32,511 nt of DNA from Bacteroidia bacterium. Lineage in GTDB: Bacteria > Bacteroidota > Bacteroidia > Flavobacteriales_E > Vicingaceae. Position 1 is the stretch's first letter, and each line of letters begins with the position of its first letter. Below, piece by piece: positions 29,083 through 32,511 of the stretch. The notes below the pieces were generated by a model. It saw only the letters and a program-made list of their open reading frames with translations. It was not told the DNA's origin and ran no database searches. The DNA lies in assembly GCA_030426475.1 (NCBI GenBank), contig JAUHYR010000027.1, positions 1-32,511 on the forward strand, read 5' to 3'. A program made the position numbers and the translations under genes.

Positions 29083-29940
29083 TTGGGCATACTATCTAAA
29101 TACTACACAATACTTGGGGTAGACGAAGATGCCGACAAAAAGGAAATTAAAAAAGCTTACCGAAAACTAGCCTTACAATACCATCCGGATAGAAATCCAT
29201 CTAAGAAAGCAGCCGAAAAGTTTTTAGAAATTCAGCAGGCGTATGACATTCTTTACAAAAGAGATTTCTCTTCTTTTATTGTTCAGAAGCCGGTAACTCC
29301 AACGCCTAAGGGAAAAGAAAAGCTTACCGAAGAAGAATGGAAAAAGCGCTACGAACTGGGCAAGCAGCGTTACCGTGAAAAACAAAAACGTTTTGCCTTT
29401 AATGTAGTACGTGCCTACCACAAGTTTGTAAAAGGCTGGACGTATAAATTTATGATATTCAACGGCACGCTTTGTTTGTTGGTAGCCCTTTTACTTACCT
29501 ATGATAAGTTTGCACCCGAAGTAACTACCGAAACCCGTATTGTAGATAAAAAGACAAATGCCATTTACAAAAACCCAAGGTATTATGTCTATACTCAGGA
29601 AAACTATTTGTTTGAAGTATCCCCTTCCGTTTACTTTTTAAGTGAACTCAACCAAACCGCCCACATTCAAAAATATCCGTTTTTTAAAGACTTTAAAGGC
29701 ATTTACATTACCATTGATGATACCAATTACGGTGTAGAATACCCTTCCGCTTTCCATACTATTTTTCCGTTTATGCAATTGCTGCTTATTCTTCCGCTAT
29801 TGCTTAACTATTGGTTCAAAGGCCCTACCATTAATTACATGGTGTGTGTGTTTTACAGTCTTTACTTTGCACCCGTTATTCTTATTGTTTGTTTGGTAGA
29901 GAATTACCGAATCTTTTCCCTTTTTGGTATCTATTACTAA
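29083..29940 (+). CDS. Membrane-bound J-domain protein (type III DnaJ-like)
   Basis: A 285-residue protein. Residues 6-65 are a J-domain ([33 protein letters not shown]) with the HPD motif at 34-36 that stimulates Hsp70 ATPase. Residues 75-115 are very basic ([18 protein letters not shown]). There is no Gly/Phe region and no zinc module, so it is not DnaJ itself. The rest has membrane segments at about 122-140 and two or three more near the C-terminus ([35 protein letters not shown]), with an extracytoplasmic loop of about 85 residues between. It probably recruits DnaK to the membrane. The start is TTG at 29083: a stop lies two codons upstream and no ATG precedes the J-domain. The partner is unknown. 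Confidence 0.85.
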
Positions 29941-29962: not shown

Positions 29963-30319
29963 AGGTTCATTAAACTAAGTTAGAGGTTCTCTCAATCGAC
30001 TTTTAGGTTCCCCAAACTAAGTTAGAGGTTCTTCCAAACAACTTTTAGGTTCTTCAAACTAAGTTAGAGGTTCCTCCAATTAGGTTTTGGGTTCGTGAAT
30101 CTTAGATTTAGGTTCTTGAATTAAAGATTTGCTTCCTTGAATCTTAGATTTGAGTTCATGAATCTTAGATTTGGGTTCGTGAATTCGAGATTTGGGTTCA
30201 TGAATCTTAGATTTAGGTTCGTGAATCTTAGATTAGGGTTCCTGAATTAAAGATTTGCTTCCTTGAATCTTAGATTTAGGTTCTTGAATTCAAGATTTAG
30301 GTTCATGAATCTTAGATTA
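29963..30319. repeat. Array of seventeen 21-bp tandem units
   Basis: Seventeen head-to-tail units of exactly 21 bp with no gaps. Each opens with a GGTTC-type box (AGGTTC, GGGTTC, GAGTTC or GCTTCC). Units 1-6 alternate between an AAACTAAGTTAG core and a CAAn...CTTTT-like core, a 42-bp higher period. Units 7-17 carry GAATCTTAGATTT or variants (GAATTAAAGATTT, GAATTCGAGATTT). Units 8-9 recur almost unchanged as 14-15, six units later. All six frames are broken by stops, so it is not coding despite the period of seven codons. No unique spacers are present. The array fills most of the 576-bp gap between the J-protein and STAND genes. Confidence 0.93.
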
Positions 30320-30330
30320 GCTTCCATAAA

Positions 30331-30344
30331 ACCTTAATTAAGGT
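30331..30344. promoter_or_regulatory. Perfect 14-bp palindrome between the array and the STAND gene
   Basis: ACCTTAATTAAGGT is identical to its reverse complement. It lies 11 bases after the last 21-bp unit and about 170 bases before the ATG at 30517. CCCTA (30366-30370) and TAGGG (30374-30378) form another small inverted pair. These are candidate operators; no binding protein is known. Confidence 0.35.
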
Positions 30345-30435
30345 AAGCAAAACCGACAAATAAGCCCCTATTTTAGGGTAAAACCTTTAAAAACACTGCC
30401 AAAATGACAAAGTGTAATGATAAAGATACTTTTTA

Positions 30436-30516: not shown

Positions 30517-32511
30517 ATGAGCAGATTTCAATCAATAGAAAATGAACTTAAATCAATTAATGGCGCTGTTTTTCAAGAGCTTTGTGATAGTTATCTAAAA
30601 CGGAGGAATGAAAATTATCGTGCATTTGCTCGTACCGGAAGTCAAGTTGGCAAACAAAAAACGACTCCAGGAACTCCTGATTCATTTTTTCTACTTCCCA
30701 ATGGGAATTATTTATTTGTGGAGACGACAACAGACGTCAGTACCAAAGACAAACTATCCAATGATATTCTTGCTTGTTTTAACTTCAAAAAGACTAAAAT
30801 ACCTATAAATAAGATAGAAGAAATCATCTTATGTATCAATTGGAATCTTAGTCAAGAAGAGATACTTAAGCTAAATGAATTAGTAAAGAGGTATAATAAC
30901 CACTCTAGAGTTCGATACCTCATGTTACAAGAATTAGCAATTGACTTACACTTCAATCATCGTGATTTAGTACATGAGTATTTGGGTCTACCTCTTGATA
31001 CAGGTCAGATAGTATCAATGGAAAAATTCATTGATGAATATAATCGAGCTTCAAAAGGAATTTCCACTCCTATCGATAATACTTTTTTACACAGAGAGGA
31101 AGAACTAAAAGAATTGAAAGCAGCCATTCATTCTGATGACTTTATAATTCTGACCGGAGCACCAGGAGTAGGAAAAACTAAATTGGCGTTGGAAGGTATT
31201 AAATCATTTCTTGCTGAAAATTTAGAGTTTCAGGCTTATTGCGTATCCTATAAGCATCATACATTATTGGATGACTTATTTCAATATCTAAACTCAGATA
31301 AAGACTATATACTTTTTGTAGATGATGCTAATAGAATAGATACTTTTAATCAAATCACAAGTTTTTATAGGGCATCAAGGAAGGGCAAACTAAAAGTAGT
31401 TATCACCGTTCGAGATTATGCTTTTCAGGAGATTGGAATTTTATGTCAAGAGTTTGCTCCCCAAAGAATTGATTTAGCAAAATTTTCAGATGAGCAGATT
31501 ATCGAGATTATTAAATTAAAGCCTTTTGAAATTCTTAATCCTGATTATCATAAGGAAATAGTGAGGATAGCAGACGGTAATCCAAGACTAGCCATCATGA
31601 CTTCTTTACTTGCCAAGGCAGAACAAAATATTTATGCTTTAAGGGATGTTTCCGATTTATTCGAAAATTATTTTTCAACCTTTATTAAAGATGATGGGGA
31701 ATTTGCTAGCGATTTAAACATTAAATGTCTTGGATTAATTGCATTTTTCTATACCATCCCATATAAAGACAAGGAAGTAGTTAGTTCACTATTAGCTCAT
31801 TTTGAAATCGACTATTCATCTTTTATTGATGCTATAGACAAGTTGGATAAATTGGAGTTAGTAGAGATTCAATTTGAGCACGTTAAAATCCCAGAGCAGA
31901 ACCTCTCAACCTACTTTTTCTATAAAGCATTTATTAAGGATAGTTTACTCTCTTTTGAAACATTACTCAGTAACTATTACGAAAGCAATAAAAATCGCTT
32001 TAGAGATTGTGTTATCCCTGCAAACAACACTTTTGGAGTTCAAAATGTAATGGATAAACTCCAACCTTTTTTGAAAGATTATTGGAAAACCGTACAGAAA
32101 GATGAAGAAAAAGGATTCAATTTTTTATCCACTTTTTGGTTCTACTTGACAGATGAAACCTTTACTTTCATTTATGGTCAAATAGAAAAACTATCCGAAA
32201 GCAATTCCGAAAATTATGAAGTAACCTATGAAACCAATGCCTTTTCGTACGACAGAAATAACTTATTAGAGCTCATTGAGAACTTTTTCATGTTTCATGA
32301 AAAAGAACTAAAAAATGCCATTCAATTAGCTTTTGAATATGTTAGAAAAGAGCCAGAACACTCACCCGAACTGATATACTCTATTCGTACAAAACTCATC
32401 TTTGATAGAGATGATGAACGATACGGCTTCAAAAGACAATCGAACCTATTTGATATTTTGTTAGAGGGACTAACCAAAAAGGATAATCTTTATGCAAAGG
32501 CATTTTACGAG
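30517..32511 (+). CDS. STAND-type NTPase with N-terminal PD-(D/E)xK-like domain, candidate anti-phage protein (3' end outside window)
   Basis: The frame is open for 665 codons from ATG 30517 to the window edge. The N-terminal 150 residues look like a restriction-type nuclease fold: an early helix with Glu21 (FQELCDSYL), then GTPDSFF with Asp55 and, after a turn, YLFVETT with Glu69; the usual Lys of E-x-K is replaced by Thr71. Residues 185-365 are a P-loop module: Walker A TGAPGVGKT (213-221), Walker B YILFVDDA (Asp269-Asp270), sensor-like VVITVRD with Arg299, and GNPRLAI (354-360), the GxP-type motif of STAND proteins. A helical region follows, probably the start of a repeat-type sensor. This plan fits Avs-like and other STAND defence NTPases. 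I do not recognise the exact family. No partner gene precedes it. Confidence 0.8.
   Translation, partial: MSRFQSIENELKSINGAVFQELCDSYLKRRNENYRAFARTGSQVGKQKTTPGTPDSFFLLPNGNYLFVETTTDVSTKDKLSNDILACFNFKKTKIPINKIEEIILCINWNLSQEEILKLNELVKRYNNHSRVRYLMLQELAIDLHFNHRDLVHEYLGLPLDTGQIVSMEKFIDEYNRASKGISTPIDNTFLHREEELKELKAAIHSDDFIILTGAPGVGKTKLALEGIKSFLAENLEFQAYCVSYKHHTLLDDLFQYLNSDKDYILFVDDANRIDTFNQITSFYRASRKGKLKVVITVRDYAFQEIGILCQEFAPQRIDLAKFSDEQIIEIIKLKPFEILNPDYHKEIVRIADGNPRLAIMTSLLAKAEQNIYALRDVSDLFENYFSTFIKDDGEFASDLNIKCLGLIAFFYTIPYKDKEVVSSLLAHFEIDYSSFIDAIDKLDKLELVEIQFEHVKIPEQNLSTYFFYKAFIKDSLLSFETLLSNYYESNKNRFRDCVIPANNTFGVQNVMDKLQPFLKDYWKTVQKDEEKGFNFLSTFWFYLTDETFTFIYGQIEKLSESNSENYEVTYETNAFSYDRNNLLELIENFFMFHEKELKNAIQLAFEYVRKEPEHSPELIYSIRTKLIFDRDDERYGFKRQSNLFDILLEGLTKKDNLYAKAFYE

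Follow-up and report, generated by a model that had tools for sequence, protein, structure and literature searches.

Arrays with a 21-bp period accompany small-protein genes in Bacteroidota: candidate helically phased DNA sites

A 32,511-nucleotide stretch of a Bacteroidia genome (hereafter the window) contains a tandem array whose units vary in sequence and keep a single length. The array lies upstream of a STAND gene, and a preliminary description made from its letters read it as a phased protein-binding array, silencer, or recombination site under selection for spacing. What kind of element keeps its spacing in this way, and is it tied to the gene it precedes?

Structure and neighborhood of the window array

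The features of the window that enter the argument are:

29963–30319, + strand: tandem array of 17 units of exactly 21 bp, established by unit inspection and lag self-match; units 1–6 alternate between types AGGTTCTTCAAACTAAGTTAG and AGGTTCTTCCAAACAACTTTT, and units 7–17 are of type GGGTTCATGAATCTTAGATTT
30320–30340, + strand: degenerate 18th unit GCTTCCATAAAACCTTAATTA; right end common to the sister arrays on contigs C117 and C100
30366–30378, no strand assigned: right-flank inverted repeat CCCTATTTTAGGG, common to C117
30397–30409, no strand assigned: palindromic box TGCCAAAATGACA, just past the right end of the array
29083–29940, + strand: DnaJ-domain ORF of 285 aa, upstream neighbor (context, outside the element)
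30517–32511, + strand: nSTAND3 NTPase ORF, downstream neighbor, open at the window end (context only)

Shifted by 21, 42, and 63 bp, the array matches itself at 0.70, 0.77, and 0.71, far above chance, as the highest value among 2000 Markov shuffles is 0.40. Stop codons occur in all six frames, and the array is thus non-coding. The constant 21-bp length proposed initially was confirmed over the 17 units, as was the alternation of two unit types in the first six: units 1, 3, and 5 differ from one another at 2–3 positions and units 2, 4, and 6 at 4–7 positions, against 6–9 between odd and even units. Two further proposals are overstated. The six-unit block said to recur later in the array comes down to three close units (units 7–9 and 13–15 differ by 2, 2, and 0 bases), while units 10–11 and 16–17 differ by 6 and 6. 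The GGTTC box is intact in 14 of 17 units, and the inverted-repeat cores are perfect in 10 of 17 (AACTAAGTT in three, AATCTTAGATT in seven), with symmetry partly retained in AATTAAAGATT, AATTCGAGATT, and AATTCAAGATT. Overall dyad symmetry in the window array is significant and weak (p = 0.033) by column permutation, which replaced an earlier comparison of reverse-complement matches with a mirror control that did not separate the array from the control.

The stop codon of the DnaJ-domain ORF is located 22 bp before the array. On the other side, none of five STAND homologues found elsewhere has an array upstream (0/5). The position of the window array upstream of a STAND gene is therefore incidental, and the proposed link between the two was rejected.

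Arrays elsewhere in the host genome

A blastn search with the window array in 60 relatives gave matches confined to its own genome, and the exact array pattern has no match in GTDB r220. As the array sequence is thus not conserved, we used autocorrelation, with lag statistics based on block shuffles: lags 5–149 were scanned over 643 kb of the host genome, and selected lags (10–30 and multiples of 21–22) over 1.55 Mb, or about 54% of the genome. These 1.55 Mb contain 15 clear non-coding arrays, all made of 21-bp units (two of them about 21.3), and the clear repeats with other periods sat inside open reading frames. The 15 arrays split into small groups of unrelated sequence, the largest with four members:

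F1: window, C117, C100, C26
F2: C60, C63
F3: C101, C107
C15a and C15b: similar mainly in the linked gene
remaining arrays: singletons

The three sisters of the window array (on contigs C117, C100, and C26) have a common left end; C117, C100, and the window array have a common right end, and further to the right, 32 bp are common to the window and C26. Only one of the four dispersed F1 copies, on C100, adjoins a small-protein gene, and the gene-linked array on C60 has an orphan relative on C63. The window copy is thus best read as a dispersed orphan with a gene-linked sister on C100.

Other observations concern the surroundings of the arrays. The TGNCAAAATGNCA box occurs five times in the 1.55 Mb, and four of these occurrences lie just past the right end of a 21-bp array, including the window array and the array on C16, which does not resemble F1 in its units. 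Written as TGCCAAAATG(A/G)CA, the palindromic box is found at window positions 30397–30409, L005:2938, L007:4648, and L044:339, the fifth copy being within coding sequence. The C16 array itself (L044:64–336) consists of alternating 16-bp near-palindromes of the GCATGAACGTTCATGC type split by AAAAA, which places A-tracts every 21 bp. Genes beside several arrays look defense-like. Four examples are the STAND NTPase of the window (30517–32511), a DNA methyltransferase together with a PDC-S36-like nuclease (L034:8755–10742), a RelA/SpoT-domain PDC-S33-like protein (L004:1936–3015), and, judged from reading alone, a methyltransferase paired with a GHKL-type ATPase (L163:6066–8990).

Two small-protein gene families

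On contig C15, two arrays are each located 3' of a paralogous 168-aa ORF, a member of a family of about 160–175 aa (hereafter the ~165-aa family). In the seven matching genomes among 100 searched, all 14 loci carry an array with a 21-bp period just 3' of the gene. By HMM search, members of the family are present in 31 of 395 Bacteroidota genomes (~8%). Under a fixed criterion (unit of 20.8–22 bp within 900 bp downstream), an array is present downstream in 47 of the 57 ~165-aa loci across Bacteroidota and upstream in two, the 57 loci including close relatives, so that the effective sample is smaller. In 19 of 45 loci, versus 0.8 in shuffles, the gene is followed first by a terminator-like hairpin and then by the array. 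Within the host genome, the arrays of this family sit between convergent genes. Paralogues about 80% identical carry arrays that differ in sequence, which makes sequence-specific recognition by the linked protein unlikely.

The ~165-aa gene is absent from the 45 same-family relatives searched, and 351 kb sampled from 20 such relatives contained no convincing array, where about 3–4 would be expected at host density, a difference that is suggestive only. Viral contigs, phages, and plasmids provided no usable ~165-aa homologue; a distant one on a Thiodictyon plasmid is without array. At four loci (L083, L086, L090, and L091), a second small ORF of ~75 aa ('GRxTxxRxxLLQLxVGExLFxxKExWK') starts directly after the array, and Pfam gave no match for the single example scanned.

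The second family came from the C100 array, which is directly upstream of a 123-aa ORF. This ~123-aa family is unrelated to the ~165-aa family and is present in 9 of 395 Bacteroidota genomes (~2%). Its eight testable loci have a 21-bp array upstream in five cases and downstream in none. A homologue in Kovacikia minuta (Cyanobacteriota; L204, plasmid pA, 41751–47059) has an array with a 42-bp period upstream and another with a 41-bp period downstream.

Both gene families are patchy and multi-copy, with up to six copies per genome. Neither was matched above cut-off in Pfam, NCBIfam, PHROGs, or PADLOC, and neither protein has a known DNA-binding domain. The preliminary account of the array missed these two families, and neither the window array nor any other orphan array has a remnant of either gene next to it.

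Period, symmetry, and evolution of the arrays

Thirty-five arrays have units of 21.0 bp, and the others have units of 20.8, 21.25, 21.33, 21.5, or 22.0 bp, for a mean of 21.13. The proposal that spacing is kept while letters change thus holds well beyond the window, over about 50 loci of unrelated sequence (mean unit ~21.1 bp), and the random unit lengths in relatives that would have indicated an ordinary minisatellite were not observed, as units range from 20.8 to 22 bp. Comparing unit changes between sister species, we found that arrays differ by substitutions or by whole units. At L084 and L095 (two species of one genus, with genes 87% identical), there are about 32 substitutions and no indel over a 315-bp array, and the far flank does not align; between the L115 and L116 arrays, the alignment has gaps of whole units (21 and 22 bp).

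Symmetry also recurs from array to array, as had been suggested: 33 of 46 arrays show dyad symmetry above column permutation at p<0.05. There is none in about one quarter of arrays (C5, C101, C107, and L105), and the 21-bp arrays without significant dyads at L024:7624–7872, L163:9336–9660, L169:9954–10278, and L131:1–192 may represent a different subclass. Compensatory change is detected at p<0.05 in 9 of 45 arrays, slightly above chance. This was too weak, and covariation was dropped as proof of pairing.

There is no open frame in 46 of 57 arrays. Closed frames, together with periods that are not multiples of three, rule out coding as the general cause, and a coding heptad repeat was rejected for the same arrays and for the window array, given its stops in six frames. 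Dyad mismatches in the arrays of the ~165-aa family comprise 688 G·T and 715 A·C; this lack of strand bias fits DNA better than RNA. In the F1 arrays C36, C117, and C100, G·T exceeds A·C and strong RNA folds are predicted. Folding energy is well below that of shuffles for most arrays, and in the window the effect is stronger for the + strand (z of −5.7) than for the other strand (−2.3). Rfam returned only sub-threshold, hairpin-like matches, none above gathering score, and a known RNA family was rejected on this basis.

Interpretation

We propose, with a probability of roughly 45%, that the array is a helically phased cis-acting DNA site with dyads, tied to small-protein genes. Its strict period, the same period across loci, the absence of coding, the dyads, the gene linkage, and the dispersed copies were observed directly; protein binding, cooperative assembly, and participation of the linked small protein are what we infer from them. 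A unit of ~21.1 bp corresponds to two turns of B-DNA, from which it would follow that every unit presents the same helix face. Dyads in most arrays would suit a dimer or polymer, probably assembling cooperatively along the array, and selection would then act on spacing and symmetry more than on letters. Most economically, the array would be a phased site at which a DNA-binding assembly nucleates, with the linked small protein as a putative member or regulator. Array loci would belong with at least two unrelated small-protein families, being 3' of the ~165-aa gene and 5' of the ~123-aa gene. More tentatively, these loci might form a hitherto undescribed two-part system, present in Bacteroidota and also in at least one cyanobacterium, in which a small protein is paired with a non-coding array read by its geometry and not by its sequence, orphans are dispersed, and the array's sole conserved properties are the two-helical-turn unit and dyad symmetry.

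Several alternatives have to be weighed against a phased DNA site. The dispersal of F1 as four copies with shared ends, only the C100 copy being gene-linked, the orphan relative that the gene-linked C60 array has on C63, and the patchiness of the families (31/395 and 9/395 genomes, up to six copies per genome) would all be expected of a mobile repeat of the REP/RAYT type, with small gene and array as the source locus from which copies of a selfish array spread, through either the small protein or a host factor. However, the linked proteins have no transposase, nuclease, or integrase match, neither a target-site duplication nor a clean common boundary was seen, and, in contrast to REPs, most arrays have no sequence relation to those at other loci, so that we regard this explanation as rather unlikely. 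A neutral origin through slippage or unequal recombination, with the 21-bp unit as a by-product of formation, accounts for block duplication (units 7–9 and 13–15) and for whole-unit gain or loss between species, and hairpin-templated mutation can maintain quasi-palindromes without selection. It does not readily account for a single unit length over unrelated sequences, loci, and families, for linkage on a fixed side to two gene families, or for the indel-free alignment between sister species, and such a minisatellite appears improbable.

About as improbable is that the array functions once transcribed, its self-complementarity folding it into successive hairpins or an extended duplex, for example as an RNA antitoxin or sponge. 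The folding energies and the excess of G·T in C36, C117, and C100 agree with a structured RNA, and the pairing of a small gene with an array is reminiscent of type III toxin-antitoxin loci; the balanced mismatches of the ~165-aa family arrays, the hairpin that splits gene from array in 19 of 45 loci, the lack of an Rfam family above gathering score, and a mean period of 21.1 bp, closer to B-DNA (2 × 10.5) than to A-form RNA (2 × 11), argue against it. Finally, 198 bp separate the end of the window array from the STAND ORF, which has the same orientation, and all four F1 arrays are 5' of a same-strand gene, as expected if an array regulated that gene as an operator or silencer. Yet the five STAND homologues lack arrays, the genes downstream of the four F1 arrays are unrelated to one another, and the convergent genes around the ~165-aa family arrays do not fit either, which leaves this role very improbable.

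As far as we found, the array type, with some twelve or more units per array, is widespread and apparently undescribed: neither arrays of period 21 nor these pairings of gene and array are described in the open-licence papers searched, and the novelty is provisional. If our preferred reading is correct, the arrays form a recurrent class of chromosomal DNA sites recognized by spacing and symmetry instead of sequence, and tied to two uncharacterized protein families in ~8% and ~2% of sampled Bacteroidota genomes. Repeat and motif searches that rely on sequence would miss the class, since its array families do not resemble one another. The two protein families would also gain a testable partner, and scattered would-be VNTR annotations would become one class.

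Comparison with known systems

Plasmid centromeres, too, place phased tandem repeats that contain dyads next to a small gene, sopC of the F plasmid being made of 43-bp tandem repeats with inverted repeats, and higher-order units of 42–43 bp exist here too. Our arrays differ in being chromosomal, numerous per genome, and variable in sequence from locus to locus, and no ParA, ParM, or TubZ was seen beside the own-genome arrays inspected. In type III toxin-antitoxin loci of the ToxIN kind, one small gene is accompanied by an intrinsic terminator and by non-coding repeats in tandem, an arrangement that resembles the single small gene, terminator, and array described here. In ~165-aa loci, however, the array is 3' of the terminator, its units are strongly diverged, and its period is fixed at two helical turns; family searches gave the linked proteins no match to any toxin family, ToxN, CptN, and TenpN included. 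In integron attC sites, symmetry is conserved more than letters, as in our arrays, whose units are by contrast contiguous, with no cassettes or genes between them; no integrase was found among the neighboring ORFs read beside inspected arrays.

REP/BIME elements and their RAYTs (PMC2817692, PMC3116915) likewise are dispersed intergenic palindromic repeats, some gene-linked and others orphan, whereas the present arrays have a strict two-turn tandem period and a locus-specific sequence. The 15 host arrays, with a largest group of four, do not form the single genome-wide repeat family typical of REPs, and the linked small proteins have no Pfam, NCBIfam, or PHROGs match above cut-off to a Y1/HUH tyrosine transposase. 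TAACTGA heptamer repeats, found in Beggiatoaceae, Cyanobacteria, and some Bacteroidetes and often near start codons (PMC4679880), are also non-coding intergenic direct repeats and occur in overlapping phyla. There, one 7-bp word recurs genome-wide, whereas here the period is conserved and the sequence is not.
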